A DNA stretch of 37,919 nucleotides, from NCBI GenBank assembly GCA_031274255.1, contig JAISQK010000308.1, positions 1 to 37,919 of the forward strand. The letters are read 5' to 3'. Position 1 is the stretch's first letter. Every line of letters starts with the position of its first letter. Below are positions 5,886 to 34,809 of this stretch, one piece after another. The stretch comes from Planctomycetaceae bacterium (GTDB taxonomy: Bacteria; Planctomycetota; Planctomycetia; Pirellulales; Thermoguttaceae). The notes below the pieces were generated by a model, which worked only from the letters and a program-made list of their open reading frames with translations, made no database searches and was not told the DNA's origin. A program made the position numbers and the translations under genes.

Positions 5886-6917
5886 TCATTCGAGCCGGGA
5901 ACGGGCGAGGATATTGGCGATTCGCGTTGCTTCGATCATACTGTCCGGCTTGGCGACGCCCTGCCAGGCACGGTCGAAAGCGGTTCCGTGAGCGACGCTG
6001 GTACGGATAATCGGAAGTCCGAGCGTAATATTAACGGCACTGTGCATGCCGAGCAGTTTGAGGGCGATGTGTCCCTGATCGTGATACATTGCCACGATGG
6101 CGTCAAAATCTCCATTTTTTCCCGCAAGCATCATCGTATCCGCAGGAAAAGGGCCTGCCGCGTCCATTCCTTCTTCCTGTGCGAGTTTCACAGCCGGTTC
6201 GATGAAAGTGATTTCCTCGTAACCGAACAGCCCCATCTCCCCGGCATGAGGATTCAGCGCACAAACACCGATTTTCGGGGTGGTGCCTCGGATGGAAAGC
6301 ATGAAATCGTGTGCCAGTTTGATTTTTGACAAAACAGTGTCGATCCGTATTTCGCGGAAGATATTCTGCATCGCCGTATGAAGCGTAACATGAACCACTG
6401 CAAGACCATGCGGCGATTGAATCATGCTGTTTTTGGCAAGATAAAGCATCATCGCAAAGTTCGTGCAGCCGCAACGTTCCGCGATCAGCTCGGTGTGACC
6501 GGGATAATTGCAGCCGGCCAGATTGAGCGATTTTTTGTTGATCGGAGCTGTCACAATGGCGTCCACCTTTTTCAGGAGAGCGTGAATCACCGCCGTAATA
6601 ATACTGTGATAAGCGGCTTCACCGGCGTGAATTCCCACTCTTCCGTGTTCGATTTTCAAAGCATCGTCGGAACACGCCTTCAGACAGGGGATTTGATGTT
6701 CTGACGGTTCGGCGGCAAACGGGGATTCGATTTGTTGAATTTTGTAATTTAGATTCAACATTCGGGCGGCACGGTCGAGAAACTCCGGATGACCGTACAC
6801 AATCGGCTTGCACGGAACGGTCGTGATCATCTGCCGCCAGCCTGCCACAATGATTTCCGGTCCGATTCCGGCGGGGTCGCCCATTGTCAGTGCGAGTTTA
6901 GGGGTCTTTGAATTCAT
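5886..6917 (-). CDS. pdxA: 4-hydroxythreonine-4-phosphate dehydrogenase (PdxA)
   Basis: The protein has 343 residues, a normal PdxA length, when started at the ATG at 6917 (MNSKTPKLALTMGDPAG). PdxA oxidises 4-phosphohydroxy-L-threonine in the DXP-dependent pyridoxal phosphate pathway, using NAD and a divalent metal. Visible hallmarks are GDPAGIGPE near the N-terminus, TAPINK, YPGHTE with a likely metal ligand at His141, LHTAM with His180, and MYHDQGH with His279. An earlier in-frame ATG at 6926 overlaps the -10 box and is unlikely to be used. The gene stands alone and is convergent with feoB; the 271 bases between them contain nothing that I can identify. Confidence 0.93.
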   Translation of the reverse strand: MNSKTPKLALTMGDPAGIGPEIIVAGWRQMITTVPCKPIVYGHPEFLDRAARMLNLNYKIQQIESPFAAEPSEHQIPCLKACSDDALKIEHGRVGIHAGEAAYHSIITAVIHALLKKVDAIVTAPINKKSLNLAGCNYPGHTELIAERCGCTNFAMMLYLAKNSMIQSPHGLAVVHVTLHTAMQNIFREIRIDTVLSKIKLAHDFMLSIRGTTPKIGVCALNPHAGEMGLFGYEEITFIEPAVKLAQEEGMDAAGPFPADTMMLAGKNGDFDAIVAMYHDQGHIALKLLGMHSAVNITLGLPIIRTSVAHGTAFDRAWQGVAKPDSMIEATRIANILARSRLE

Positions 6918-6924
6918 AAAATTC

Positions 6925-6953
6925 ATTATACCAAAAGGATAAAATTCCGTAAA
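6925..6953 (-). promoter_or_regulatory. Sigma-70-type promoter of pdxA giving a leaderless mRNA
   Basis: On the minus strand a TTTACG -35 box (6953-6948), a 17-base spacer and a perfect TATAAT -10 box (6930-6925) are followed by 7 bases and then the ATG at 6917. Transcription would therefore start at or within a base of the start codon, so pdxA is predicted to have no leader and no Shine-Dalgarno sequence. Confidence 0.7.
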
Positions 6954-7142
6954 CAGGAAAGGACCTGCTATTCCAAAACACACCGAACGCGGCCGGAGAG
7001 AACATTCTGTTTTCTTCTGAATTATAGAACCGGTTTCGGTTTTTGCGTCAAAATACGTAAGTGACCGACCATGTTTTCCGCCATTTTCGTAAATTTTATG
7101 GGATTCATCCGTTTTTTAGAGACAGTCCGTAATATTGGGGAG

Positions 7143-8145
7143 AGCAGCGGAGCCAACGTAGCACGTTGGATCGCGATTGCCTCATGGTCACTGCGTTCCA
7201 TTCGGTCTCAATTGTCATCCTTTTTCCGTTTTTCCGTCTATTGATTCCAGCGACCAACGGGAGCGGGTTCACGGCTCTCGGAGCGGGCAGCGTGCCGTTC
7301 CATCGCAGTTGCCTTCGGCTTCCGTTGGAAAGATTTCTCTAACCGACGCCGACCACACCGAAGGTGTCGGGAGGCAAACCGCCTGCCGCGGCGTCGCGGC
7401 CCGCCGGAGGCATTTTTCCTGAACATCAGAACGCGGATTTTGAGGTTTGGAGTGATGATTTCGGACGTCGAAGGGGAGGATTTACGCCGGTTTTAGGGAA
7501 ATCACGGCCTTTTTCCACCCAAACAGAGGAAAAAGACACGTATCCGGGAGCTAAAGACACGTGTCCGAAAGGAAAAGACTTGAGGCCGAGAACAAAAGAC
7601 ACGAGGCAAAAGCAAATTGGAGCACAACATTAAGCCGTTGGAGTACTCCAAAAGGGAATTGGAGCACAACATCAAGCCGTTGGAGCACTCCAAAAGGGAA
7701 TTGGAGCACAACATCAAGCCGCTGGAGCACTCCAAAAGAGAATTGGAACACAACATCAAGCCGTTGGAGCACTCCAAAAGGGAATTGTAGCACAACATCA
7801 AGCCGTTGGAGTACTCCAAAAGAGAATTGGAGGGCTGCAATCCTGATTTGGTGAGTAATCTTTGCCTCCGGCGGCCAACGCAAGGGCGTTGGATCCCGGT
7901 AGGCTCACACTCACTCCGTTCGGTTCGCGTCCTGTTGGAGAACCTGCTCATGTTTCCAACCGCTTGCGAAGTGCGGTGCAACAGCATGCTGCCTCCTGTT
8001 AGTCGCTAGTATTTTCCGGCGGAACAAAAGGAAAGTAGTTGGAAAATCTTTCCACTTGGGGGCTGAATGGAACGCAGTGACCATGAGGCAACTGCGATGG
8101 AACGGCACGTTCCCCTCCGTCGGCCAACGCGAGGGTGTTGGATCC
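7143..8145. repeat. Dispersed mosaic repeat, copy A, with inverted 27-bp arms
   Basis: About 1 kb with no convincing gene. It is bounded by an inverted pair of 27-bp arms at 7179-7205 (beginning GCCTCATGGTCACTGCG) and 8063-8089 (26 of 27 bases match). The left arm is flanked outward by a hairpin, CCAACGT-agc-ACGTTGG, and the right arm by the related CCAACGC...GTGTTGG near 8123-8140. Another copy of that hairpin motif lies near 7879. Pieces of the interior (for example 7399-7440 and 7500-7560) match copy B at 18446-19000, which lies in the opposite orientation. The interior also contains a 42-bp tandem array. No transposase gene is present, so this would be a non-autonomous or relic element. 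Confidence 0.7.
7616..7831. repeat. 42-bp tandem array, five units plus a partial
   Basis: Units start at 7616, 7658, 7700, 7742 and 7784, with a partial unit at 7826. They begin ATTGGAGCACAACATCAAG and differ by only a few bases. Each contains a dyad, TTGGAG-CA-CTCCAA, which is a perfect palindrome in units 1 and 5. The period is a multiple of three. In one frame the units read LEHNIKPLEHSKRE, a heptad-like 14-residue repeat, but that frame has no start codon and stops at TAG in unit 5. Copy B has the flanking sequence but no array. The array is not CRISPR because the units are contiguous and there are no spacers. Confidence 0.9.
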
Positions 8146-8148
8146 CTG

Positions 8149-8185
8149 CCGCGAGCCGCGGTCGTGCTACACTGCCGGCTCGCGG
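8149..8185 (-). terminator. Hairpin just downstream of the AsmA/TIGR03545-like gene
   Basis: A 9-bp perfect inverted repeat, CCGCGAGCC (8149-8157) and GGCTCGCGG (8177-8185), has a 19-base loop. It begins 4 bases past the stop codon of the gene ending at 8190. No T-run follows, so it may be a processing or stability hairpin rather than a strict intrinsic terminator. Confidence 0.45.
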
Positions 8186-8189
8186 TGTT

Positions 8190-10421
8190 CTACGGGTAAA
8201 CCGGGATGACACGCGGCGGCTCCGAATCCGGCGGATCCCTCCCGAAAGAACCAAGAATCCCGTGGATCGACTCCATGACATCATTTTCAAGGCGGTTTTC
8301 GAGCCATTCTCCTGCTTTTTGTTCCAATGGATTCTTCAGACCGATTTTCAGATTCGGTTCCGTCACACTCATCGGACGGTTCAAAAGGGACTGAAAAAGC
8401 GGATTCTGAAGCACTTCCTTTGCCCGTTGTTGATCTTTCGGCGACAAATTTTCTATTTGTGCGTTAATCACTCGATCAAGGTGAATCCCGTTTTGCCCCA
8501 TCACGAGGTCGAGTTCCCGCCGCCGTTCGGTGATGTCGTCCAGAATCGGCTGCAACTCCTTTTCAAAATAGGCGTCCATTTTCTCATTCGACTTTTGCGA
8601 CATCTGATTCAAAAGGACAACCGCCTTCTGATGAATGATTTGCCATTCCTGAATCAAAAACGGTTCCATCCGTGCCGCGAGATTTTCTCCGAGATTCGAG
8701 CGAAGGGAAAACTGCAACTCCTTTTGTGTTCCTGAAAGATGAAGATTCACATGGAGGGTTTTCAGACTTTCCGCGGCGAGGGTCAGAACATTTTCAACAG
8801 ATGTTCCCCGTAAATCCGGCGGCAAAACCGTCTGAATTCTGACAGGATGCTGAAGCAGCGAAAATTCTCCCTGAATCGACTCCCCGTTTACCGCAATTTC
8901 CGCAAAAAAACGGGAGATTCCCGGGGAAACGGCGAATGCCATTTCGCTGCGATTTCCCAGAAGAGATTCCGGCAGACGGTAATCGGGACAATAAACCAAA
9001 ATGTGATCTTGCGGCACGTCACGGCTCCTGTCGAGGATTGCCGTAACGTAAACGGTCGGAATTTCAAGATTCCATGCCGGATTCTCCAAAAGAGGAACAT
9101 TTCGCGGAACCTGAAGCCAATCCACCGTTTGCGGCGAAACGTCGACCGGTTCAAAGGACGCCGTCTGCATGAGATTCCGCATCCGCTGTTTCTCCCGGCT
9201 GATGAAATCCGCCGTTTCCGAGTCTGTCCTTTCGCCGTCGGGAAGAAAACAGAGGGGATTGTCCGCCGCGTTTTCGCTTGGTTTTTGCCCCGAAACGCAA
9301 AAACGGAAGATCATCGGCTTATCAAGCCGCTTCGGCTGATTACTGAAATTGCGAAATCCGCCGGTAAAATAAAGATGCCGGTGAAAAAAGTCCGTCTGAC
9401 CGTCAAAAAGAACGCTGTCGAAAAGAACTTCCGCCTTTGGAGGCTTTCCCGGAAACGGCACATGGGTTCCGGCATGTCGATTCATCGAAAAAAAACGCAA
9501 ATCTTCGAGCCATGTTTCGTCTTTTTCCGGCAAGCCTCTCCGTCCCCAATGGAGCCACGCCAGCAAGCCTTGAATCCGGCTCCGCATTTCCCCGCCAAGC
9601 ATGTATTCCGAAAGAAAATCCGCACCGATTTTCGGCACATTCAGCGGTTCCTTCATCGTTTCGATCCGCTTGCGGTCGTTGCGGATTGCGTTTTCGAGTC
9701 CCAGCCGGTCACTCTGAAGCCTCGACGGAATCTGCTGAGCTTTCTGCTGAAACCGTGCCAGTTCCTGATCTATCGCGGTAAGCTCCTGCAAAATTCCGCT
9801 TACGATTTGAATTTTATCGTTGGTCTCGTTTGCGGAATCTGTCCACTGCCGGATCCGTTCCAGGGACATTTGGACCGCTTTTCCCTGTTGCCGGAATGAT
9901 TCCGTCTCCTGCGACCATCGAAGATTGACCTTTTCCGCAAATCCGGCAATTTCAAACTGTCCGGCATACGCTTTGGCGGCCTCCTCCGGATTTTGAGACA
10001 GAATTTCTTTCATCGGAAGCTGTTTCAAGGCATTTTCCCAACGGTTCCTCCCGCCGCCAAGCTGGTTCCATGTTTGCATGAGTCCTGTTTCCGCACCGGA
10101 AAGATTCGGCTTCAACTGATGAATCCGCACTTCAGACGCCAAAAAACGCCGCCGTAGAAGTTCGCTTCCGTCGAGCCGCACCGTAACAGACTCCGCCGTT
10201 CCGAGCGGCAGTGAAGGATTTGCCGGATCGGTGATTTCCAGATCGTAAAGCATCACCTGCGTCGGCTCAAGCGATGAACGGACCGTTCCGAGATTCAGCA
10301 ACAAACCGGTCTTGGAGTGCCATACGCTGACGAGAGTCTTACGGACCGCCGCATTAATACTGCAAAGGCACACGATCAAAACGGCGGCGAGAATCAGTAA
10401 ACGGTTTAGAAGATATTTCAT
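8190..10421 (-). CDS. inner-membrane-anchored AsmA/TIGR03545-like protein
   Basis: The protein has 743 residues from the ATG at 10421, which puts a transmembrane segment (LLNRLLILAAVLIVCLCSI) at the very N-terminus; an ATG three codons upstream is equally possible. After the anchor, a VMLYDLEITDPANPSLPLGTAES-like stretch and LLRRRFLASEVRIHQLKPNL resemble the first repeats of AsmA-type and TIGR03545 proteins ('...DVADPxxPMxNL...'). These are long beta-rich periplasmic proteins linked to envelope lipid homeostasis. The middle (about 210-300) is helical and likely coiled coil. A beta-rich part and another helical stretch near the C-terminus follow. No Shine-Dalgarno sequence is visible. The family assignment rests on the N-terminal pattern and is tentative; the gene itself is certain from its length. 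Confidence 0.6.
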   Translation of the reverse strand: MKYLLNRLLILAAVLIVCLCSINAAVRKTLVSVWHSKTGLLLNLGTVRSSLEPTQVMLYDLEITDPANPSLPLGTAESVTVRLDGSELLRRRFLASEVRIHQLKPNLSGAETGLMQTWNQLGGGRNRWENALKQLPMKEILSQNPEEAAKAYAGQFEIAGFAEKVNLRWSQETESFRQQGKAVQMSLERIRQWTDSANETNDKIQIVSGILQELTAIDQELARFQQKAQQIPSRLQSDRLGLENAIRNDRKRIETMKEPLNVPKIGADFLSEYMLGGEMRSRIQGLLAWLHWGRRGLPEKDETWLEDLRFFSMNRHAGTHVPFPGKPPKAEVLFDSVLFDGQTDFFHRHLYFTGGFRNFSNQPKRLDKPMIFRFCVSGQKPSENAADNPLCFLPDGERTDSETADFISREKQRMRNLMQTASFEPVDVSPQTVDWLQVPRNVPLLENPAWNLEIPTVYVTAILDRSRDVPQDHILVYCPDYRLPESLLGNRSEMAFAVSPGISRFFAEIAVNGESIQGEFSLLQHPVRIQTVLPPDLRGTSVENVLTLAAESLKTLHVNLHLSGTQKELQFSLRSNLGENLAARMEPFLIQEWQIIHQKAVVLLNQMSQKSNEKMDAYFEKELQPILDDITERRRELDLVMGQNGIHLDRVINAQIENLSPKDQQRAKEVLQNPLFQSLLNRPMSVTEPNLKIGLKNPLEQKAGEWLENRLENDVMESIHGILGSFGRDPPDSEPPRVIPVYP

Positions 10422-10571
10422 GACGGTCATTAAGGAAACTGCGGCAAAAACGGGGAAAATTTGTACGTATATATCAATTTTCCCCGGACGTGTCAATTCC
10501 AAAATGACCGGCAAACGTCATTTTGCGTGAAAAATTTGCGAAATGACGCCATCGACAACACAAGACACCTT

Positions 10572-11621
10572 TCATGATGTCGTAAGGTCTTCATGATTGG
10601 AATCGTCTTCCTTTTGAGGGGTTTTCTCCTGCGGTCCGTAGGACTGCCGCCTGACGGAAAATTCCAGTGCCCGTCCGGCTTCGATCTGCTCGGCGATCCA
10701 TTTTCCGGTTTCCTCGCCATGAGTGGAAGGAGTCAGAATTTCCTTCACGCTTTCCTGAACCTCTTTCGGAAGGTCTTCAAACTTGGCGACATCCCATACC
10801 TGATTGTTTTTCTTCACCGTCAGACCGCCCGGCTGATCCTCCTGCCTGGGATAGATTGAGATTTGAATCTGCTCCACTGTGCCGGAATTTCCAGGCGCAA
10901 ACCGCGGAATGATGTTTCCGTGAAAACGTCTCAGAATGTCGTTGCCGAAGTGTTGTTCCATCTGTTTCCGCGACTCTTCGAGGAGACGTTGAATTTCCGG
11001 GGGAATTTCCTGTTGCGGAACCCCCTGCTGCGGACCGCCGAATCCTTCAATGATGATCCCCGGTTGGATGGAGCGGAATGTGCCGTTCGCCGGCGGCGTC
11101 ATCGGAATCGCCATATATTCAGGACGTTTGGCCGGCGTCAGTTTGAGTTCCTTTTTCTCGCCTTTTTTAATGACCGTCACGGTCTGCTCGGTTTCCTTGA
11201 CCGCGTCAACTTTTTTCATGATGTCTTCAACGCTTCCGACGGAGGTGTCGCCGATTTTGAGGAGAATGTCGGTTGATTCGATTCCCGCTCTCGTCGCAGG
11301 ACTGTCCGCCACAACCGATTCCACAAGGACACCACCCTCTTGCTCACCAAGATTCAAATGCAGCTTCAACAGCGGCGGAACCACGCCACACTGAATCCCG
11401 ACCCAATAATCGCTGACTTGCCCAAGCGGCAACTGAACCTGCTCTGGAATGACCGTGAAAAACTTTGGGATCTTTGTTTTGGATTTTTGTTCTTCCAAAA
11501 CGGTGTTTGGAGAATCAGACTCTTGTCCCATGACACGGGAAGACATTACCGCCAATGTTGTCAGACCGGTCAACGTAACCGCCATGACCGGAACAAACCA
11601 GTTTTTGAGTGTTTTTTTCAT
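10572..11621 (-). CDS. secreted PDZ-domain protein
   Basis: The protein has 349 residues and an AAAGGAG Shine-Dalgarno sequence 10 bases before the ATG. An N-terminal signal peptide or anchor (NWFVPVMAVTLTGLTTLAVMSS) is followed by a PDZ domain at about residues 72-165. That domain carries the typical GGVLVESVVADSPATRAGIESTDILLKIG pattern of HtrA/DegP PDZ domains. There is no protease domain. The rest has Gln/Pro-rich stretches, an IPPEIQRLLEESRKQMEQHF helix, and a charged tail ending in EDDSNHEDLTTS. It lies downstream of the putative anti-sigma and ECF sigma genes, about 150 bases from the anti-sigma gene. A role in sensing envelope stress for that sigma system is plausible but inferred only from context. 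Confidence 0.75.
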   Translation of the reverse strand: MKKTLKNWFVPVMAVTLTGLTTLAVMSSRVMGQESDSPNTVLEEQKSKTKIPKFFTVIPEQVQLPLGQVSDYWVGIQCGVVPPLLKLHLNLGEQEGGVLVESVVADSPATRAGIESTDILLKIGDTSVGSVEDIMKKVDAVKETEQTVTVIKKGEKKELKLTPAKRPEYMAIPMTPPANGTFRSIQPGIIIEGFGGPQQGVPQQEIPPEIQRLLEESRKQMEQHFGNDILRRFHGNIIPRFAPGNSGTVEQIQISIYPRQEDQPGGLTVKKNNQVWDVAKFEDLPKEVQESVKEILTPSTHGEETGKWIAEQIEAGRALEFSVRRQSYGPQEKTPQKEDDSNHEDLTTS

Positions 11622-11666
11622 TTCTACTCGACTCCTTTAATTGAATTGTAGGCTAGTTTTCATTTT

Positions 11667-11710
11667 GTACCAATATCCATCCATTACAAAAATCTTCTGG
11701 ATATTGGTAC
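11667..11710. terminator. 13-bp perfect inverted repeat between the anti-sigma and PDZ genes
   Basis: GTACCAATATCCA (11667-11679) and its exact complement (11698-11710) enclose an 18-base loop, about 60 bases downstream of the anti-sigma gene and 46 bases upstream of the PDZ gene start. It has no T-run. It could be a terminator or attenuator that partly uncouples the two genes, an operator for the PDZ gene, or an mRNA-stability hairpin. Confidence 0.5.
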
Positions 11711-11771
11711 CACAGGATACATGATGATTGTTGCCGTCAACGAAAAATCATTGAACGTTTTTTCAAAATTC

Positions 11772-12614
11772 TTACTGATACCGGATTCGCGGACGGTAAC
11801 GGATGTTGACCTGGTCCACCGGAATCACGGCGCGCCGACCGTCGGAAACCGGTACCACAATGTTCTGACGCTGAATGTCCACATCGTGACCTTCCGCACG
11901 AAGCCGCTGAATTTCGTTGTCGCGAAATGTCGGCGACGTGGAAAGGTAAGCCGCCGGATTGACGGACTCCGCCGGATAACACGGCACCTGTATCCCCTGA
12001 AATTCCGGATTTGCCGAATCAAGCGTCACGTACTGAAGCGGGGCGTCCGGCAACGAGGATTCCGCAAGAATCGGAGGAATATACGGCTCGTTGGGATCAA
12101 TGTACGGCATCGGTACCGGCACGGCCCCTCGCGAATCACGAGGTTCAACCGTAGTGATCACGTGTTCCGGCGGAAAGGAGCCTGGAATGGCGGTGTCGGT
12201 TCGGACAATGAGGTAAAAAATCAGTCCGCCCAGACAAAACGCCAACAGAAATCCGCTGCAAACCGCGAAAAAGTTAATTTTATTGAAAACAGTACGGACT
12301 GAATGTCTTACAGAAGAAACCGTTTTTTCCGCCGCAAGAGGGTTTCTTTCAGCGGAAAAGACTTCATCCCATGTGTTTGTTTCACCTGCTTGATCTGTTT
12401 TGCCGGTAAGGCTTTCCTGAACCATGACATTTTCAAGAAACGCCATCGCGCAGTCCCGCCAGCCGTTCTGAATTTCATCAAGACGCGAAAGGACAAGCCG
12501 CCGCTCTTCCTCGGAAAGTTCCCCATCGGCCAACCGCTCCAGCATTTCCGGCAGGAAGGATTGGAGGTCAAAAGACTCACTATTTTGATTTTTTGAATGA
12601 AATTCGTTTTGCAT
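11772..12614 (-). CDS. putative anti-sigma factor, single-pass membrane protein
   Basis: The protein has 280 residues from the ATG at 12614 (MQNEFHSK). The N-terminal, probably cytosolic, part has LPEMLERLADGELSEEERRLVLSRLDE, which matches the helical 'dGeLseeE' pattern at the start of many planctomycete anti-sigma factors. There is no HxxxCxxC zinc motif. One transmembrane segment lies at about 113-137 (FFAVCSGFLLAFCLGGLIFYLIV). The periplasmic part is Pro-rich, with no recognised domain. The ECF sigma gene lies 81 bases upstream on the same strand, which is the usual arrangement for a sigma/anti-sigma pair. The assignment comes from that position plus topology and is not proven. Confidence 0.6.
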   Translation of the reverse strand: MQNEFHSKNQNSESFDLQSFLPEMLERLADGELSEEERRLVLSRLDEIQNGWRDCAMAFLENVMVQESLTGKTDQAGETNTWDEVFSAERNPLAAEKTVSSVRHSVRTVFNKINFFAVCSGFLLAFCLGGLIFYLIVRTDTAIPGSFPPEHVITTVEPRDSRGAVPVPMPYIDPNEPYIPPILAESSLPDAPLQYVTLDSANPEFQGIQVPCYPAESVNPAAYLSTSPTFRDNEIQRLRAEGHDVDIQRQNIVVPVSDGRRAVIPVDQVNIRYRPRIRYQ

Positions 12615-12695
12615 TGAAATTCTCACTTTATCCAATTTTCCCAAATTTCGGCCAAAGGAAGATAGCACACATCTGCATTCTAAATTGGAACGGCA

Positions 12696-13247
12696 TTATC
12701 CTCTCAACTCTTGACGTAAACGCTGTCTGGCACGGTGGAGCCTTGCTTGAACAGCGGAAACGCTGATTCCGAGTTTTTCCGCCATTTCGCGGTAACGCCA
12801 CCCGTGAATGTACTTCAGCAGAAGGATTTCCCGTTCTTCCGGTTCCAGATTTTGCATTACGGCGCGAACCTGTGCGTGCCGTTCCTCGCTGAGGAGAATG
12901 TCGAGCGGTGTAAAATTCTCACGGGTCGGCTGATTCGGGACCACTTTTTCCACATAACGCTCCACCAATTTACGCCGCCTTCCCATTTTCCGCCGATACT
13001 GCAATGACTGCCGTACAGCAATCTGATACAGCCACGGCGTCACCCGCGTGACGTCCTGAATCGGGGACTTTTGAGCAATCACGGCCAGTGAGACATCTTG
13101 CCAAACATCCTCTATTGCGGCTTTTTCGCCGACCTGCGCAGCAATCACCGTCCGAAGCCATGATTCGTTTTCCCGAAGTTTGGCCTCCCAGTCGATGTCG
13201 GGCACTGTTTGGGGTTCTGAAATTCGTTTTTCCGGTGACAGGATCAC
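12696..13247 (-). CDS. ECF-type RNA polymerase sigma factor
   Basis: The protein has 183 residues. A GTG at 13247 is the likely start because AGGAG lies 5 bases upstream; the GTG two codons earlier directly abuts that Shine-Dalgarno sequence. Region 2 is seen as AAIEDVWQDVSLAVIAQ followed by RVTPWLYQIAVRQSLQYRRKMGRRRK. Region 4 is seen as LEPEEREILLLKYIHGWRYREMAEKLGISVSAVQARLHRARQRL, a helix-turn-helix typical of sigma-70 family region 4.2. This two-region build defines extracytoplasmic-function sigma factors, which direct RNA polymerase to a small regulon after an envelope or other signal. The next two genes encode a putative membrane anti-sigma factor and a PDZ protein, so a surface-stress regulon is a reasonable guess. 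Confidence 0.92.
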   Translation of the reverse strand: MILSPEKRISEPQTVPDIDWEAKLRENESWLRTVIAAQVGEKAAIEDVWQDVSLAVIAQKSPIQDVTRVTPWLYQIAVRQSLQYRRKMGRRRKLVERYVEKVVPNQPTRENFTPLDILLSEERHAQVRAVMQNLEPEEREILLLKYIHGWRYREMAEKLGISVSAVQARLHRARQRLRQELRG

Positions 13248-13442
13248 AAACACTCCTGAATTTCGTACTCTTTATGTATCAGCCGACTCCATGCGGTATT
13301 GTTGCTTTTCGTCGGAAAATGTTGTCGGAAATTTGACATTTTTTCACAAAAGGGGATGGGTGGTTTTTTAGACCGTTTGGAGGTATATTGAATAGACAGG
13401 ATGTTATTTTTGCGTCAAAATTTCACTTGAAAGGGTTGGTTT

Positions 13443-14306
13443 ATGAAGAAAGTTATGATTTGCTTCGTTGTGGCGGCGACGGTTTTAACCTGTTTCTCTT
13501 CCTCATACGCGGTTGAATTTGATGGAAAAAAGGTCAAAATGCCTGTTCACAACCGTTTGTCCGTTGCTCATCGCGGATTTTCGTACATTGCCCCGGAAAA
13601 TACGCTCCTCGCGTATAAAATGGCGGTACAGTTCAAGGCAAACGGGGCGGAATGCGATGTCCACACAACTTCCGACGGTGTGATCGTTCTGAGTCATGAC
13701 GGCAACATGAAGCGAACCTTGGGAAAGGACGCCCTTATCACCAATACGCCGTTTTCCGAATTTCGCAAAGCGGACGCAGGACTTTGGATGGGAAAACAGT
13801 TCAAAGGGGAAGTTCCTCCGACTTTGGAGGAATTTTTGGAACTTCTGAACGGGACAACCTGTTATCCTGTCATCGAAATCAAAATGAAAGGAATTGAGCA
13901 GCCGGTCATCGACCTCGTGAAAAAGCACGGCCTGTTGGACGTATCGACGATCATCACTTTCGATGCCGAAGTGGCGGCGAAGGTTCGGAAAATGGAACCG
14001 GATATCAGCGTTGCATGGCTTTACAGTGAAGACATGAAAGGGAAAACCGCCGAAGCGGAAGCCGATCGGCTGACAGAGTTTTTTCTCCAAAAATGTGCCG
14101 AGTTGGACACCAACATTCTCGACCTCAATTACGGGCTTCTTTCTGAAAAACTCATCAAAAACCTGCACGATCATGGTGTCGTCGTTTGGGCATGGACGGT
14201 GGACAATCCCAAGGGGATGGAACAACTTCTCGATTGGGGAATCGACAGCATCACGACCAACCGGACGGATTTACTCGCCGAAGTGCTGAAAAAACGCAAA
14301 ATGTAA
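13443..14306 (+). CDS. secreted glycerophosphodiester phosphodiesterase
   Basis: The protein has 287 residues and starts at an ATG with GAAAGGG 7 bases upstream. A signal peptide (MKKVMICFVVAATVLTCFSSSYA) is followed by a GDPD TIM barrel. The family residues are in place: His43-Arg44-Gly45 (AHRG), Glu52-Asn53 (PENT), Glu70 and Asp72 (AECDVH), and His85-Asp86 (LSHD). The later barrel strands are also recognisable: IEIK, ITFD, WTVDN and ITTNR. It should hydrolyse glycerophosphodiesters released from phospholipids to glycerol-3-phosphate and an alcohol in the periplasm or outside the cell. No glycerol-3-phosphate transporter lies nearby. A consensus TTGACA occurs at about 13333, but no well-spaced -10 box follows. 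Confidence 0.92.
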   Translation: MKKVMICFVVAATVLTCFSSSYAVEFDGKKVKMPVHNRLSVAHRGFSYIAPENTLLAYKMAVQFKANGAECDVHTTSDGVIVLSHDGNMKRTLGKDALITNTPFSEFRKADAGLWMGKQFKGEVPPTLEEFLELLNGTTCYPVIEIKMKGIEQPVIDLVKKHGLLDVSTIITFDAEVAAKVRKMEPDISVAWLYSEDMKGKTAEAEADRLTEFFLQKCAELDTNILDLNYGLLSEKLIKNLHDHGVVVWAWTVDNPKGMEQLLDWGIDSITTNRTDLLAEVLKKRKM

Positions 14307-14472
14307 ATCCATTACCAATGGTCCGTTTCAACGTTTTTCCAATAAAACAGCCGTCCCCTTTATGCGGCTCATGTTTTCTAACCGGAAAATGGAACCGGCT
14401 TGAGGATATTGATGATAGGATTTTCCCTACCCCGTCCCTGTTAACGGAGTAAGGAAGAGTAAGAAAATGGGA

Positions 14473-14496
14473 ACACGTTACCTACCGCTAACGTGT
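14473..14496 (-). terminator. Hairpin at the 3' end of the SMP-30-like gene
   Basis: An 8-bp perfect stem, ACACGTTA (14473-14480) and TAACGTGT (14489-14496), has an 8-base loop that includes the stop codon of the minus-strand gene. On the minus strand it is followed by TCCCATTTTC, a weak T-run. It lies between two convergent genes and could stop transcription in either direction. Confidence 0.5.
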
Positions 14497-15720
14497 CTGT
14501 CGCGGACGGGGTTGTCTGTTTTGCAGCGGAGTGATGTCGATGACCGACATGGTGTGCGGCGCATCATATTTCGTGTTTTTCAGTCCGGGAAACGGCCAGT
14601 CGAAGTTGGAGATAATCATCTTGCCGTCGCGGACAACCAGTTCCGCCGGTTGATCAAGCAGCCCTTCGGCCCCGTCGTTGTCGTCATTTTCCCAAAGCGT
14701 CCAGCACCGCACGCCGTTAGGGTTCGGGCTAGGCGGCAGCAACACGCGGTTAGAGTTGAACGGCGTTAATACACGGATGGAATTCCTTTGCGAATCGTTG
14801 ATAAAAATCAGGTCCGAATTCTCGTCGTAAAAAATGCCGTCACAACACTGATACCCGTCATCCAGAATCTTGTCGCATTTGACTTTACCGTCTTTGTCGG
14901 TCGTCACGGCATACATCACACCGTCGCCGAAATTGCCGAAATAGATGATGCCGTTTTTATCGACGGTCATACCGTCGGGACCGCTGTTGTCTTCCCGTCC
15001 GATTTTTTTGACCTTCACTTTGACGACAAGATGTTCATCTTCACCCTTGGGAAGAACTTTCAGAGGTTCCGTGCGTCCGAGGATTTCCTCACCCTTGAAA
15101 CGCCAGAGTCCGCCGGCACCGAATTCATCCGGCACAGCGCAGGTATCAGTGATCCACAGCTCATCACCGCGCCATAAAATCGCGTTCGGAAGCTGCATTC
15201 CCTCCACAACGGTCGTGATTTTGCCGGTCGGCTTTCCCTCTTTCATTTCGACGCACAACAGCCGGGACTTATAGTCCGCACTGACAAAAAACTGGTTGTC
15301 GCAAACATAAAGGTTGCCGTCCGGGCCGATTGCGAGTCCCATCGGGCCGCATTGTCCTGTTTCTTCGAACGGCGGATATTCGAGCAATTTTTCGAGCTTG
15401 CCGTCTTTGTCAATAGAACTCAACGTGGCCGGAAAATCTTTTTTACCGGTCTTGCGGTCCATTGTGTTGAAGTTCGGACAATTCAGATAGATCGTCCCTG
15501 TCTTGGGACAAACGGTCATACCGTCAGGGTTGTGACACCATTCAGGAAGCTCCAGATAGAGTTCCGGCTTGAAAAGGTCGGGATTTTGCTGAACCTGCCG
15601 GACACGGACACGGTTACGTCGCTGCAGTAACGGACGCTGCAACTGGGCAAAAAGCGATGTTTCCGCCAAAAGCAGAACCGCGATCACCGCAAAACCAAGA
15701 ACAGTCATACATTTTTTCAT
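14488..15720 (-). CDS. secreted SMP-30/gluconolactonase-like beta-propeller protein
   Basis: The protein has 410 residues. The ATG at 15720 is preceded by AAAGGAG. A signal peptide (MTVLGFAVIAVLLLAETSLFA) and an Arg/Gln-rich linker come before repeated blades of the type HNPDGMTVCPKTGTIYLNCPN, GPMGLAIGPDGNLYVCDNQ, LPNAILWRGDELWITD, SGPDGMTVDKNGIIYFGNFGDG and CDGIFYDENSDLIFINDSQ. This is the SMP-30/gluconolactonase/LRE-like propeller, whose members are often Ca2+-dependent lactonases. Glu/Asn/Asp candidates for metal binding occur in the blades, but I cannot assign the site with certainty. The substrate is unknown. No sugar pathway genes are adjacent. Confidence 0.75.
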   Translation of the reverse strand: MKKCMTVLGFAVIAVLLLAETSLFAQLQRPLLQRRNRVRVRQVQQNPDLFKPELYLELPEWCHNPDGMTVCPKTGTIYLNCPNFNTMDRKTGKKDFPATLSSIDKDGKLEKLLEYPPFEETGQCGPMGLAIGPDGNLYVCDNQFFVSADYKSRLLCVEMKEGKPTGKITTVVEGMQLPNAILWRGDELWITDTCAVPDEFGAGGLWRFKGEEILGRTEPLKVLPKGEDEHLVVKVKVKKIGREDNSGPDGMTVDKNGIIYFGNFGDGVMYAVTTDKDGKVKCDKILDDGYQCCDGIFYDENSDLIFINDSQRNSIRVLTPFNSNRVLLPPSPNPNGVRCWTLWENDDNDGAEGLLDQPAELVVRDGKMIISNFDWPFPGLKNTKYDAPHTMSVIDITPLQNRQPRPRQTR

Positions 15721-16011
15721 TGAGAAGTGACTCCTTTTTTGAGTTAAAGTGATGGATTTTTGTTAAAGCCGCTTTCATACAGAAAGAGTAAAAATTCCAT
15801 TGATCTCCATTATATAAACAATGCAGCCAAGAAACAAGTCACCTCAAACAACATCTCACCGGTATTTCCTATTCCGTAAAAAACAGTTCAAAAAAGACAC
15901 AACTCATGACGATGATAGAAAGATTGAAGCGAAATCGAAGTTCTTGGAGCGTTTTTCAAATTACGCTGTTTCTTTAAGCTATGTATTTTGGTTGATCTAT
16001 AAATTTGTTGC

Positions 16012-18444
16012 ATGAATCACAATAGTCAAATTTTAATCCGTGCGAAGGAATTTCCGAAAAACGGCCGAAGAAACTTAGTGACTGTCATTTTTACTGTTCG
16101 TCTTTTAGAATCTGAAACAGGAATCCGTCCGTTGAAAAACATAAAATTTTCCGCCGCAAATAAGTTTTCTGTCGTCAATATCCATTTGATAGTACTCTTT
16201 TTGTTTATCGTGTTTTATTCAATAGATTCGCATGCCTCTGAGACCGCTCCTCCCGTCATTTCAGACATCACGATGGCGAATCCTGAAAGGAATGACACAA
16301 CGGAAAACGCCGTAATATCGGAAGACGGTCTCCGGATTGCGGACGCATCGTCGTTTTATCCGGTTTCATTCATCAAAAAACTCGAGGCACTGGACCAAAA
16401 GGACTCCGCTTGGAGCGGTGAATTGAAAGCTCAACTGGACCGTTTGATTTCCGCTTTTGAAAATTATTCTTATGTTGAGGCGGATACGGCACTTGCGAAA
16501 ATTGCGAATATTAAAATTCCTGCGACATCGGAAACAAAGCCGATTCTTGCGGAACTTCAGGTGAGGCAGAACCTTTGGAAACAGTTGCTTGACATACAAA
16601 AATCAGAATCCGCTTCGGACTCTCCGAATCCCGTCATGCTGAAAGACGCCGCCGATATGTACGCCCAAACGCAGCAGGTGATTCGGTCGTTCCGCGACGT
16701 TCCCAATAGTGCGGAATTCCTCAAATTTTGTAAGTTCGACACTTTTTCCCGCCAGTTGGATTCCATTCTTAAAACGCATGATTCGCTGCTCAAGCAGGAC
16801 GAATTTTTTTCTTCCGGGGTCACTATCAGCAAAGTGTCGCTTGATTCTTCGATGCTGAACACCCGTTTGAGTCCGGAGGAAACCCGAAGTCTTCTTTCTT
16901 CCATCAACGGGATTTTCCTTCGGTGCGGAGAGGTTTCAAGAATGCCGGAGTGGACGCCGTTTTTTTCAATGCTCTCTTTTTCGGAGTGGACGGACACTTT
17001 CAAACAATGGTACGGAAACCTTGTTGACCCGCTGGATTATTTGACCGCTTATGAGCAATATCTGGACGTAGGAAATGCCGGTAATGAAAAGAATCTCTCT
17101 CTGTTGACTCGGCAAATGCTTCATTCCCAATCAGAGTCTTACCGGGCAATGGGAACAACCGTTCAGAACCAGTTTTCCCAGCCGCATCTGAAATTATGTA
17201 TTTCAGAACACGTTATTAATAGGATGCTGCCGCCGCGTGACCCTGAGTTTGATGTGGTCCGTGATTCCATCGCCGGACAGCAGGTTTACGGACGCCGCCG
17301 GACGGAAACGCAAGTGAAAATGGATTTGATACCGAGTCCGGACCGGCTTCTGATTTCGCTGAACATCAATGGTGTGGTGCGGACCAGTACGACAGCAAAT
17401 TCCTTTCCCGCGACGGTGCATAATCAGAGTTACGCCAATTACATCGGAAGAAAACAACTGGAGCTGACCGCGCAGGGAATCAAAATTTTGCCGGCGGAAG
17501 TCGTTGTTCCCAATGCATGGGTCAAACTCAATAATATTCACACAGACTTCGACTCGGTTCCTTTGCTGGGGGACATTGTTCGGGGAATCGCAACGAGCCA
17601 GTACGAAGAAAAACGTAAAACCGTCGAGTTGGAAACAAGACGCAAGGTTCTGATGCAGGCAAAACAGCAGATTGACAAAGAGGCTGACGAACGTTTTGCT
17701 GTTTTGAATGACCGGATGACCGGTCTTTTTCTGAATGTGCTGACCTCACAGGGAGCCTCACTGGAGCAGCGGGACTGCCGAACGACGGAAGAGTGGCTCT
17801 ACGGTTCATGGTCTCTTTCCACACCGGCTGCATTGGGAAGTCATACCGGGGAACCGCTCACGCCGGAAACGGCCGTTGCCGACCTGAAAATTCATCAGTC
17901 CGGAATCAATGCGGCTCTGGAGCGTCTTGAGCTGGGCGGAAAGAGGATGACCGTCCGGGAACTCAAACAGTATTTGCTCGGGATCATCGGTCGGTCCGAT
18001 CTTTTTGCCGGGGAGGAAAATGACGATGCGGTGATGGAACTGGCGGAACATAATCCTGTCAGTGTCCGTTTTCTCCGCAATCAGGTTGAGGTGTCCCTGT
18101 CAGTAAACTACCTTGGCGTCGAAAAAAGAGAGTGGTATGATTTCGGGATTTTTGTGTATTACAAGCCGCAGACTTCCGCAGCCGGCGGTCTCTGTCTCGT
18201 CCGTGACGGTGTGGTTCAGTTGAAAGGGGATTTGAGTTTCAGAACCCAAATTCCGCTCCGGGCGATTTTCAGTAAGATTTTTGCTCCTCAGGGTGAAATT
18301 CCCTTGTGTCCGAAACTGTTCCGGGAAGACGAACGTTTCCTCGGAATCACAACAGGGCAGCTTCGGATTGCCGACGGTTGGTTTGCTGTCGCCTTGGTTT
18401 CGCAGCCGGTCATTGCGAAAAACAAAGGGGACCGCCGTCATTAA
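16012..18444 (+). CDS. large secreted protein of unknown function
   Basis: 810 residues if started at the ATG at 16012. A TTG at 16132, with AGGAA 8 bases upstream, would give (M)KNIKFSAANKFSVVNIHLIVLFLFIVFYSIDSHA, a better-placed signal peptide, so the true start may be there. The N-terminal half is helical and may form coiled coils (SAWSGELKAQLDRLISAFENY; VRQNLWKQLLDIQKS). The middle contains ISEHVINRMLPPRDPEFDVVRDSIAGQQVYGRRRTETQVKM, followed by beta-rich sequence. The C-terminal part contains a VNYLGVEKREWYDFGIFVYYKP segment and RTQIPLRAIFSKIF. I do not recognise the family; its size and make-up resemble conserved planctomycete secreted proteins. Repeat copy B begins two bases after the stop. 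The 291 bases upstream are AT-rich with no clear gene. Confidence 0.7.
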   Translation: MNHNSQILIRAKEFPKNGRRNLVTVIFTVRLLESETGIRPLKNIKFSAANKFSVVNIHLIVLFLFIVFYSIDSHASETAPPVISDITMANPERNDTTENAVISEDGLRIADASSFYPVSFIKKLEALDQKDSAWSGELKAQLDRLISAFENYSYVEADTALAKIANIKIPATSETKPILAELQVRQNLWKQLLDIQKSESASDSPNPVMLKDAADMYAQTQQVIRSFRDVPNSAEFLKFCKFDTFSRQLDSILKTHDSLLKQDEFFSSGVTISKVSLDSSMLNTRLSPEETRSLLSSINGIFLRCGEVSRMPEWTPFFSMLSFSEWTDTFKQWYGNLVDPLDYLTAYEQYLDVGNAGNEKNLSLLTRQMLHSQSESYRAMGTTVQNQFSQPHLKLCISEHVINRMLPPRDPEFDVVRDSIAGQQVYGRRRTETQVKMDLIPSPDRLLISLNINGVVRTSTTANSFPATVHNQSYANYIGRKQLELTAQGIKILPAEVVVPNAWVKLNNIHTDFDSVPLLGDIVRGIATSQYEEKRKTVELETRRKVLMQAKQQIDKEADERFAVLNDRMTGLFLNVLTSQGASLEQRDCRTTEEWLYGSWSLSTPAALGSHTGEPLTPETAVADLKIHQSGINAALERLELGGKRMTVRELKQYLLGIIGRSDLFAGEENDDAVMELAEHNPVSVRFLRNQVEVSLSVNYLGVEKREWYDFGIFVYYKPQTSAAGGLCLVRDGVVQLKGDLSFRTQIPLRAIFSKIFAPQGEIPLCPKLFREDERFLGITTGQLRIADGWFAVALVSQPVIAKNKGDRRH

Positions 18445-18445
18445 C

Positions 18446-19000
18446 TCTAATTGGTAATGCCGGGACGCCCCGGCGGGGCGGTAGCCTCATGGTCACTGCG
18501 TTCCATTCGGCCTCCGGCGGGAATATCTCTTTCAATTATTTCCCCATTGTTCCGATACAATTCTCTTTTGCCTCGAGTCTTTTACTTTCGGACTCGTGTC
18601 TTTTTCCTCTGTTTGGGCGGAAAAAGTCCGCGATTCCGTTATAATTGGCACAAATTCGCCCGTCCCAAACCGGAAACCGCCGCTCCAAACCTTAAGGTTC
18701 CCTCTTGGAAGCTCGAAATCTGGTATTGGAAGTCCGAAACCGGACATCGGAAAGCCAAAATCCGCGTCCTGATGTTCAGGAAGAATGCCTCCGGCGTGCA
18801 GCGGTAAACCGCTGCCCCCCTGATGGGACTGCCGTCCCGAAGCAATAACCCGCTCCCGCTGGTCGCTGATATTGGTGAGCGGAACAGCGTGAAGCGGAAT
18901 AGGAGGCCGAATGGAACGTAGTGACCATGAGGCAAGTGGGTGCAACGTCACGTTGCCCGACCGCGCAGCCGGGAGGCAAGTGCGATCCAACAACATGCTG
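18446..19000. repeat. Dispersed mosaic repeat, copy B, inverted relative to copy A
   Basis: About 555 bp bounded by inverted 27-bp arms. The left arm at 18484-18510 is identical to the copy A left arm; the right arm at 18907-18933 has one mismatch. Each arm is flanked by a hairpin: GCCCC-ggc-GGGGC near 18468 and GCAACGT-c-ACGTTGC near 18940. Read on the minus strand, the interior matches copy A in several blocks, including the stretch around AACAGAGGAAAAAGACACG and the one around CTGAACATCAG. It lies between the 810-residue gene and rlmN, and ends just before the rlmN promoter. No transposase is present. Confidence 0.7.
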
Positions 19001-19040: not shown

Positions 19041-20090
19041 ATGCTTGATAAAATATCCCTGCTTGAGTTTGGCCCCGAGGAATTGAAAGAAGAACTTGCT
19101 TCTTTGGAATTGCCGAATTTTCGGTTCGCGCAAATTCCGCGATGGTATTTTGCCAGAAAAGCCGGTTCCATTTCCGAAATGACCGATCTTCCGTTGACAC
19201 TTCGGGAGAAGCTTGCGGAAAAATATACCGTTTTTGCTGCGGAAATGCTCGCACATCGGAAATCGGACGACGGTACGGAAAAGCTTCTTCTTCAGTGGCC
19301 GGACGGTCACCGTGTGGAGTGTGTTTTGCTCCGCGACGACCGGAATCACCGTACCGCGTGCATTTCCATACAGGTCGGTTGTGCGATGGGGTGTCTGTTT
19401 TGCGCGAGCGGACTTGATGGTTTTGTCCGTAATCTCACACGTGGAGAAATGATCGAACAAATACTCCGGCTCAATCAACTTCTTCCCAAAACGGAACGGT
19501 TGACGCATCTTGTCATCATGGGAACCGGCGAGCCGCTGTTGAATCTTCCGTCGCTTTTGTCTGCACTGAATGCCGTGACATCCCAGGAAAATCTGGATAT
19601 CAGCAAGCGGCGGGTCACGATTTCAACCGTCGGACTGCCGCAAGGAATCGAAAAACTTGCCGATGCGGAAGTTTCTTACCGTCTTGCAGTGTCGCTTCAT
19701 GCTCCGAATGACGTATTGCGTAATCGAATCGTGCCGCAGAACAGGCATACCGGAATTCAAAAAATCATGGCGGCCAGCGATTATTTTTTTGAAAAAACCG
19801 GCCGCCGTGTGACCTTTGAGTACGTTTTAATAGACAGTCTGAACGATTCCCGCGAACACGCTCAGGAATTGACCGCACTTCTCCGAAACCGGACGGCAAT
19901 CGTCAATCTGATTCCGTTCAATCCGGTACAGGGTTTGCCCTACAAAACACCCTCACCAACAGCGACACGGGATTTTGCGGAGACGCTTCAAAACAATGGG
20001 ATTGATATGAAGATTCGGTTCCGCAAAGGAAACAGCATCAACGCGGCATGCGGTCAACTTCGCCGAAGTTGGAAAGAAAGCAAGGAATGA
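19041..20090 (+). CDS. rlmN: 23S rRNA (adenine2503-C2)-methyltransferase RlmN
   Basis: The protein has 349 residues, the usual RlmN length. RlmN is a radical-SAM enzyme that methylates A2503 of 23S rRNA (and A37 of some tRNAs). The CxxxCxxC cluster motif is GCAMGCLFCASG with Cys114, Cys118 and Cys121. The GTGEPLLN motif, the STVGLPQGI stretch and the second catalytic cysteine near the C-terminus (NAACGQL, Cys337) are all present. The N-terminal helical domain (GPEELKEELASLELPNFRFAQIPRWYF) is typical. The gene follows repeat copy B and appears to be expressed from a leaderless promoter. Confidence is very high from the motifs. Confidence 0.96.
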   Translation: MLDKISLLEFGPEELKEELASLELPNFRFAQIPRWYFARKAGSISEMTDLPLTLREKLAEKYTVFAAEMLAHRKSDDGTEKLLLQWPDGHRVECVLLRDDRNHRTACISIQVGCAMGCLFCASGLDGFVRNLTRGEMIEQILRLNQLLPKTERLTHLVIMGTGEPLLNLPSLLSALNAVTSQENLDISKRRVTISTVGLPQGIEKLADAEVSYRLAVSLHAPNDVLRNRIVPQNRHTGIQKIMAASDYFFEKTGRRVTFEYVLIDSLNDSREHAQELTALLRNRTAIVNLIPFNPVQGLPYKTPSPTATRDFAETLQNNGIDMKIRFRKGNSINAACGQLRRSWKESKE

Positions 20091-33663: not shown

Positions 33664-34809
33664 ATGTCAAGATGGGGGGGGGGGGTAGTCTGTACTGGTT
33701 CCCGTATTGCAGATGCAAGTGCTGTCGATGCGAAAAGTGCTGCAAACAATCCCCAAAACTCTTTTGTCCGTTCAAAATCCACTCTCTATTCCGGTTCTAT
33801 TGTCCGCCCCGCTTTCACTCTTGTCGAGCTTCTTGTGGTGATTGCCATCATCGGGATTTTGATTGCTCTTCTTTTACCTGCGGTTCAGGCCGCCCGCGAA
33901 GCCGCAAGAAGAATGCAGTGTACAAACAATCTCAAACAGCTCGGTCTTGCGGTCCATAACTATGTGGATGCGGCCAAATCACTTCCCTATTATTGCAGTC
34001 CGGCGTCCGCAAGCAACACTCCGCTTCACGCTCCGACGGCGACAAACCAAAATGACATTTATGTCTGGTCGGGGCCGTCCTGGGTGCCGCGAATCTGGCT
34101 CTATACCGAACAAAATGCCTTGATCGAAAAAGCGATTTCGGAAGCGGCCGGGTTTTGGCAGAATAATTCCTGGAATTCCGGTGCGGCAGGATTGTCTTAC
34201 CGGATGACGGAAGTGAGTTTTCTGGTTTGTCCGACACACGGCGGAGCTACGATTGTCACTTCCAATACAAATTATCAGAGATGGGCGGGTTGTTATGCCG
34301 CCAATCTGGGACCGACCGACTATGATCAGAATGAAATGACGGTTCCCGGTTCCAGCCCGGAACGGAAAATTAAATTTACGGCACCCTGGAAATGTCAGAA
34401 GGCGAGGAAATTTTCCAGCATGGCCGACGGGACCAGCAACACCATGCTGTTTGCCGAAGTGACTCCGCCGCAGGAGGAATGGGAAGGGGATTGTACCGTC
34501 GGCGATATTCGCGGCGGTCATGGAGCCGGATTTACCGCCTGGATTTCTCCGAACAGCAAAGGCGGAGATGTGATTTGGTCGGCGGCAGCCAGATATCCGG
34601 AAAATCGGATCGGTGCTCCGGGAAAACGGGGAAGTGCGACCGAAGGAAATCCGGTCAATCAGATCATTGCCGCCCGAAGTTATCATACCGGCGGTTTGAA
34701 CGCCTGTATGGGAGACGGTTCCGTTCAATTTGTGTCCGACACCATCTCTCTCGACAACTGGCGTGCGGCGGCATCCGCGGACGGCGGCGAGTCGGCAGGA
34801 CTTCAGTAA
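33664..34809 (+). CDS. DUF1559 prepilin-like protein, start interrupted by a poly-G tract
   Basis: The main frame has a type IV prepilin-like segment ([20 protein letters not shown]) followed by [31 protein letters not shown], the hallmark DUF1559 N-terminus. It ends with [21 protein letters not shown]. The residue before FTLVE is Ala rather than the usual Gly. The start is in doubt. The best start by signals is ATG 33638 (AGGAG 7 bases upstream), but with the 12-G tract as given it reads 16 codons and hits TAG at 33686. The main frame itself has ATG 33664 (no Shine-Dalgarno sequence; used for these coordinates) and an upstream GTG at 33586. With 13 or 10 Gs, ATG 33638 would be in frame. A lipoprotein gene follows. 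Confidence 0.85.
33674..33685 (+). repeat. 12-G homopolymer near the start of the DUF1559 gene
   Basis: Twelve consecutive G residues lie 36 bases after the ATG at 33638 and 10 after the ATG at 33664. Tracts of this length slip during replication. Here the tract length sets whether the Shine-Dalgarno-equipped start is in frame with the DUF1559 coding region. It is the longest homopolymer that I noticed in the window. Confidence 0.9.

Follow-up and report, generated by a model that had tools for sequence, protein, structure and literature searches.

Our analysis of a 37,919-nucleotide stretch of a Planctomycetaceae bacterium draft genome (contig JAISQK010000308.1; hereafter the window) concerned two composite repeats, copies A and B, which are probably members of a large Planctomycetota family of non-autonomous, palindrome-based mobile repeats built as slot-ordered mosaics of hairpins. 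The family is real, abundant and structured, as seen in its copy number, its slots, its compensatory stems, the taxonomic spread of its core and a filled and an empty site in a relative; comparison of sequences indicates that it is mobile in relatives, and copies A and B may themselves have been mobile. The original prediction had located in the window four arms of 27 bp, hairpins outside them and interior blocks shared in inverted orientation, all of which are present, and had taken the arms as the bounds of copies of a "mobile or REPIN-like" family (REPIN, doublets of repetitive extragenic palindromes, REP, forming hairpins). It underestimated the system and mistook the 27-mer for an end: the arms are internal cassettes, and the copies extend from about 7152 to 8162 (A) and from about 18459 to 19000 (B).

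Copy number and genome load

The host draft genome (3.76 Mb in 377 contigs, 87% complete, with the window as contig 51) contains 122 matches to the 27-mer GCCTCATGGTCACTGCGTTCCATTCGG when up to 3 mismatches are allowed, 54 of them forward and 68 reverse. Chance is excluded because the reversed pattern, used as a control, had no match in the genome, and these copies support the dispersed, non-autonomous, palindrome-based repeat family that had been proposed. None of 39 relatives, among which were three same-genus genomes, had the arm, and it was absent from GTDB contigs and viral contigs with its own genome excluded; a BLAST search against phages and plasmids gave no match either. Rfam 15 yielded nothing above the gathering score in the window or the element loci, save unrelated tRNAs; given this and the 122 copies, the arm is neither confined to this locus nor part of a conserved gene or RNA. 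Among the roughly 100 sites in the loci read, ten inverted pairs lay less than 1.5 kb apart, facing uniformly at spacings of 381-1095 bp; most sites held a single 27-mer rather than a unit of two inverted REPs, and the inverted pair is not the rule. The arm is one hairpin cassette inside a larger system and not a terminal repeat.

A dictionary of 12-mers from arm-bearing loci, run on 20 contigs taken at even steps, detected 23 elements, covering 2.9% of the bases in 150 kb; by extrapolation this would amount to several hundred elements genome-wide. Their lengths were continuous, from about 50 to 840 bp. The same dictionary detected no elements in samples of three same-genus genomes. The same-genus genome G001 (loci L137, L139, L141 and L143) carries a different AT-rich mosaic, in which inverted repeats are nested, as in TAACTATTCAGTTGCCCA-AGCCCAATAAATCCGCACT-GGGCAACTGAATAGTTA; its sequence is unrelated to that of the elements described here.

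Slots and cassettes

The sequence surrounding each arm is a chain of palindromes. On the strand on which the arm reads CCGAATGGAACGCAGTGACCATGAGG, the first slot is occupied by at least eight alternative hairpins besides the arm, including GCGAACCGAACGAAGTGAGCGTGAGC, GCGACCGCCTCGAAGAGGCCGGGAGC, GCCGACCACACCGAAGGTGTCGGGAGGC, GCCGACCGCGCAGCCGGGAGGC or merely GCCGAAGGC, with the same kinds of neighbours to left and right. These alternatives share the predicted fold GCC-GA-stem-GA-GGC, comprising an outer stem, GA/GA, an inner stem and a short loop. A perfect hairpin followed within 15 nt of the slot-1 hairpin in 174 of 209 cases, against 8.6% of control positions; this second slot holds 54 different hairpins, giving 76 combinations of slot-1 and slot-2 occupants. 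The sequence after the element also falls into several recurring types, and the mosaic ends vary. Each copy is a string of hairpins in ordered slots; the many alternatives available for every slot differ by compensatory stem changes and are re-assorted between copies.

Structure and covariation

Fold z-scores for 25 elements averaged about -2.2 on both strands, compared with +0.16 for coding stretches. A conserved double hairpin of 58 nt, present in both A and B, was described by a covariance model (R1). Its alpha hairpin, GC-GA-CC-AAC-GG-GA-GC, occurs in compensated variants such as GT-GA-GC-AAC-GC-GA-AC and GC-GA-CT-AAC-AG-GA-GC, and all four alpha pairs were present in 72 of 119 instances gathered without requiring pairing. 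Among 30 aligned cores, covariation was 0.573 versus 0.234 after shuffling and at most 0.165 after sliding, and seven of the nine core pairs showed double-sided change. A second, model-fitted set of cores, mostly from relatives, showed covariation in the same direction.

Spread of the core

The core was first detected outside this genome when the 119 genomes of the family were searched with BLAST; R1 then matched 44 of them, from 16 of 40 genera, and several of these held at least 45 copies. In a phylum-wide sample of 392, the core was found in six further genomes, two with at least 12. G397, a genome of another family, contains 14 or more units that closely resemble one another and measure about 111-117 bp; some are arranged in tandem, and their ends, TAGGTTAC and CTCGTTAGA, hardly vary. 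The core string is also present in five viral contigs. At one locus (L241 124-401, G072 C10), three tandem tRNA genes with 102-bp spacing and equal scores lie near a tandem array of core elements.

Insertions within genes of relatives

In one relative (G002), the core forms an in-frame insert of 34 residues (102 bp) in a phage-type helicase, and two homologues (62-64% identity) cleanly lack it, providing a filled and an empty site; no target-site duplication was seen at this site. The core occurs twice, in frame, in a lambda-type phage portal gene of G003, with 48%-identity homologues lacking the stretch, and in G113 it splits a Ser/Thr kinase, again in frame, between DFGIA and the GTPSYMAPEQ motif, at a position that in PknB is just a short loop. 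A glycosidase-like gene of G078 also contains it in frame, and the orthologues in G024 and G079 (90-97% protein identity) do not. Since host genes differ in the frame and strand in which they read the core, the moving unit is DNA and not a protein module, and the in-frame cores together with the clean 102-bp filled and empty site imply behaviour like that of a non-autonomous mobile palindrome. In the host genome of A and B, candidate in-gene copies were doubtful, with none convincing; one copy lies immediately before the likely start codon of a DUF1559 gene.

A further open reading frame (ORF), of phage capsid type, holds the core in frame upstream of the capsid domain (L225, G062), and one for a trypsin-like peptidase (L207, G091 C41) seems to contain in-frame core elements. 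Comparison of L240 (G078 C180) with L257 (G079 C273) revealed a second, unrelated palindromic insert of 93 bp, in frame at GACGG^CGAGC, where the empty site of G079 matches exactly and the flanks are identical; when translated, this insert matches dozens of other places in each genome of that genus.

Proposed mechanism and alternative explanations

Because the stems are compensated and whole hairpins are exchanged, a folded intermediate, single-stranded or RNA, is favoured. The unit would spread through copying of this hairpin-rich intermediate, probably single-stranded or RNA, and the enzyme involved, which would be supplied in trans, may read structure more than sequence. The elements would have multiplied in this lineage, and cassettes could be exchanged between copies through recombination or template switching at shared palindromic joints. 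Insertions would persist mostly between genes here, and in relatives some would persist in frame within genes. The likely role is that of selfish DNA that may incidentally affect proteins and the RNA of genes next to it.

Several points weigh against this explanation. No movement was observed, and neither a reverse transcriptase nor an IS110-type transposase was found in the genome, in a search that covered the Y1, IS110 and reverse transcriptase families. Empty sites at A or B were not found via the flanking proteins, the order of genes there differing in relatives, and the empty alleles of the glycosidase-like gene of G078 differ around the insertion as well. In the 30-core alignment, the beta hairpin had been pre-selected for pairing by the search pattern, and kinship between copies inflates the covariation counts. 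The only known source of the long mosaic form with the 27-mer is, moreover, a single draft genome.

A broader possibility, which we advance tentatively, is a phylum-wide mobile class in which structure rather than sequence is inherited, with hairpins bearing tandem G-A mismatches exchanged as cassettes of fixed slots, spread through phages and hosts without a REP-associated tyrosine transposase (RAYT) and repeated addition of in-frame peptides to proteins. 

High copy number, hairpins, intergenic location and inverted pairs would all be expected of a REP/REPIN family spread by a RAYT (Y1 HUH) transposase, and the genome contains one Y1_Tnp gene, with many in relatives. This explanation is nevertheless unlikely and, as stated, largely refuted: GTAG precedes only 15 of 76 arms, the others having different tetramers, and G023 has 12 cores and no Y1_Tnp match. 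The sole Y1 (RAYT-like) transposase gene of the genome (L109 1580-2540, G000 C344) is flanked by unrelated palindromes, CTGCCCTnnnAGGGCAG, which do not recur in those parts of the G000 sequence that were examined. The elements are not REPINs because they lack both a conserved GTAG tag and an associated RAYT; of the earlier "mobile or REPIN-like" label, the repeat family stands and the strict REPIN does not.

It is similarly improbable that the elements are miniature inverted-repeat transposable elements, that is, deletion derivatives of DDE insertion sequences with the 27-mers as terminal inverted repeats. The ten uniformly facing pairs would be consistent with such an origin; however, there are additional cassettes beyond the 27-mers, the ends of the copies vary, the majority of copies carry just one 27-mer, the occupants of slots are exchanged and no target duplication was seen.

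Equally doubtful is an immobile host RNA or DNA under selection, such as terminators, mRNA stabilisers or nucleoid binding sites, as might be suggested by the compensatory stems and the intergenic position (overlap with ORFs of 0.39, versus 0.86 at random placement). Neighbouring genes were convergent in two cases, divergent in three and co-directional in 12, and this absence of convergent enrichment argues against a simple terminator role. Same-genus genomes without elements, the in-gene insertions in relatives and the lack of an Rfam family also conflict with a host function.

A last explanation, that the repeats are artefacts or chimeras created in assembling a fragmented metagenome, for which the 377 contigs and the many copies near contig ends might speak, is very improbable and already contradicted by the unique sequence on both sides of A and B within the 37.9-kb contig and by cores of the same structure in single-contig and other genomes.

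Organization of copies A and B

Copies A and B are probably palindrome-based mobile repeats; in each, a long module sits between two oppositely oriented arms (Table 1). In copy A, two mosaic hairpin arms flank the long module and a tandem array; this module also occurs in other genomic copies, with the same type of 3' flank, and the beta hairpin of the core is replaced or interrupted by another cassette. The 11 kb between A and B could conceivably invert. The interior blocks that the two copies share, oppositely oriented, measure 135 nt (72% alike), 78 nt (78%) and 52 nt (71%) and are thus short or only 71-78% alike. Both copies are intergenic, and gene order around them is not kept in the same-genus genomes. 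The best named relatives of RlmN, beside copy B, are from Gemmataceae and other Planctomycetota (51-55% identity), which places the organism in that phylum.

Near these elements, and in G001 too, tandem arrays recur that have unit lengths of about 21 or 42 bp and are often palindromic (window 7607-7832; L130 7320-7500; L137 8493-8780; L140 1899-2230; L115 2-225). The window also has C-terminal segments (HTGG..GDGSV) at 29-93 and 34682-34746 that we take to be of DUF1559 type. Such segments are typical of planctomycete prepilin-like gene families.

Table 1. Features of copies A and B and their flanking genes in the window.
Feature	Position	Strand	Remarks
pdxA	5886-6983	-	PdxA by Pfam; one side of copy A
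Copy A, composite	7152-8162		k-mer coverage and module positions
Slot-2 hairpin	7153-7169	+	CCAACGT-AGC-ACGTTGG; perfect, just beyond 27-mer
27-bp arm, slot-1 cassette	7179-7205	+	27/27; other strand GCC-GA-ATGG...CCAT-GA-GGC, predicted fold
Conserved core	7248-7315	+	R1, 44.2 bits
Alpha hairpin of core	7249-7267	+	GC-GA-CC-AAC-GG-GA-GC
Minimal slot-1 hairpin	7311-7319	+	GCC-TTC-GGC
Alternative slot-1 hairpin	7348-7375	+	GCCGA-CCACACCGAAGGTGTCGG-GAGGC
Slot-2 hairpin	7385-7400	+	GCCGCG-GCGT-CGCGGC
Long module	7395-7606		inverted matches I1 and I2 with copy B
Tandem array	7607-7832	+	42-bp unit, 5.4 copies
Slot-2 hairpin	7875-7892	+	CCAACGC-AAGG-GCGTTGG
Alternative slot-1 hairpin	7903-7928	-	GCGAACCGAACGGAGTGAGTGTGAGC
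Second 27-bp arm	8063-8089	-	26/27
Slot-2 hairpin	8099-8113	+	GGAACG-GCA-CGTTCC; perfect, just beyond 27-mer
Hairpin	8149-8161	+	CCGCG-AGC-CGCGG; perfect, just beyond 27-mer
774-aa protein gene	8190-10514	-	no Pfam match, function not assigned; other side of copy A
810-aa protein gene	16012-18444	+	precedes copy B
Copy B, shorter composite	18459-19000		
Slot-2 hairpin	18459-18474	+	GCCGGG-ACGC-CCCGGC; perfect, just beyond 27-mer
27-bp arm	18484-18510	+	27/27
Long module, inverted relative to copy A	18561-18797		matches I1 and I2
Slot-2 hairpin	18798-18815	-	GCAGCGG-TTTA-CCGCTGC
Conserved core double hairpin	18811-18868	-	R1, 73.5 bits, E 1.5e-20
Beta hairpin of core	18825-18838	-	GGGAC-GGCA-GTCCC
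27-bp arm	18907-18933	-	26/27
Slot-2 hairpin	18942-18956	+	GCAACG-TCA-CGTTGC; perfect, just beyond 27-mer
Alternative slot-1 hairpin	18955-18977	+	CCGACCGCGCAGCCGGGAGGC
rlmN	19041-20090	+	Pfam RlmN_N and Radical_SAM; follows copy B

Significance and comparison with known systems

If this explanation is correct, mobile palindromes of a large family that is apparently undescribed occur in Planctomycetota, and they would provide a natural system for studying the spread of hairpin repeats without a RAYT, the shuffling of mosaic repeats and the frequency with which mobile DNA contributes peptide segments to functioning proteins. The family may also explain the fragmented assemblies of these genomes and could offer strain markers. 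A literature search on planctomycete palindromic repeats, with most subscription journals outside its coverage, returned only mentions of GTAG/CGTC REPs, and neither the core string nor a description of the family was found within that coverage.

Rickettsia palindromic elements (RPEs) are palindromes of about 100-150 bp, in several unrelated families, that lie in frame within unrelated genes and keep the host frame (PMC10969869, which also lists BOX and enterobacterial repetitive intergenic consensus, ERIC, elements). The planctomycete core is likewise palindromic and found in frame inside unrelated genes of relatives; the planctomycete family differs in phylum, in the shuffling of cassettes in slots and in a genome share of about 3%. 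A CGTC tag has been reported for RPEs (PMC3733652), whereas no such tag was seen at the ends of the G397 units, which run TAGGTTAC...CTCGTTAGA. REPs, bacterial interspersed mosaic elements and REPINs are also short intergenic palindromes of high copy number joined into mosaics (PMC3733652, PMC3116915), a likeness that extends to the planctomycete elements, although these have far more slot-ordered cassette types in addition to lacking a conserved GTAG and a RAYT association. In the yeast mitochondrial GC clusters or double-hairpin elements, palindromes merge and shuffle (PMC4478555), and in Volvox organelles they are inserted into one another (PMC2670323). As described in the available parts of those two reports, these are compact hairpins with similar merging and shuffling, but they are organellar, have far fewer cassette types and come with no claim of in-frame coding insertions. 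BOX elements, ERIC and Neisseria mosaic repeats are modular or palindromic bacterial intergenic repeats as well, and, compared by description, their modules are much fewer than those of the planctomycete family.

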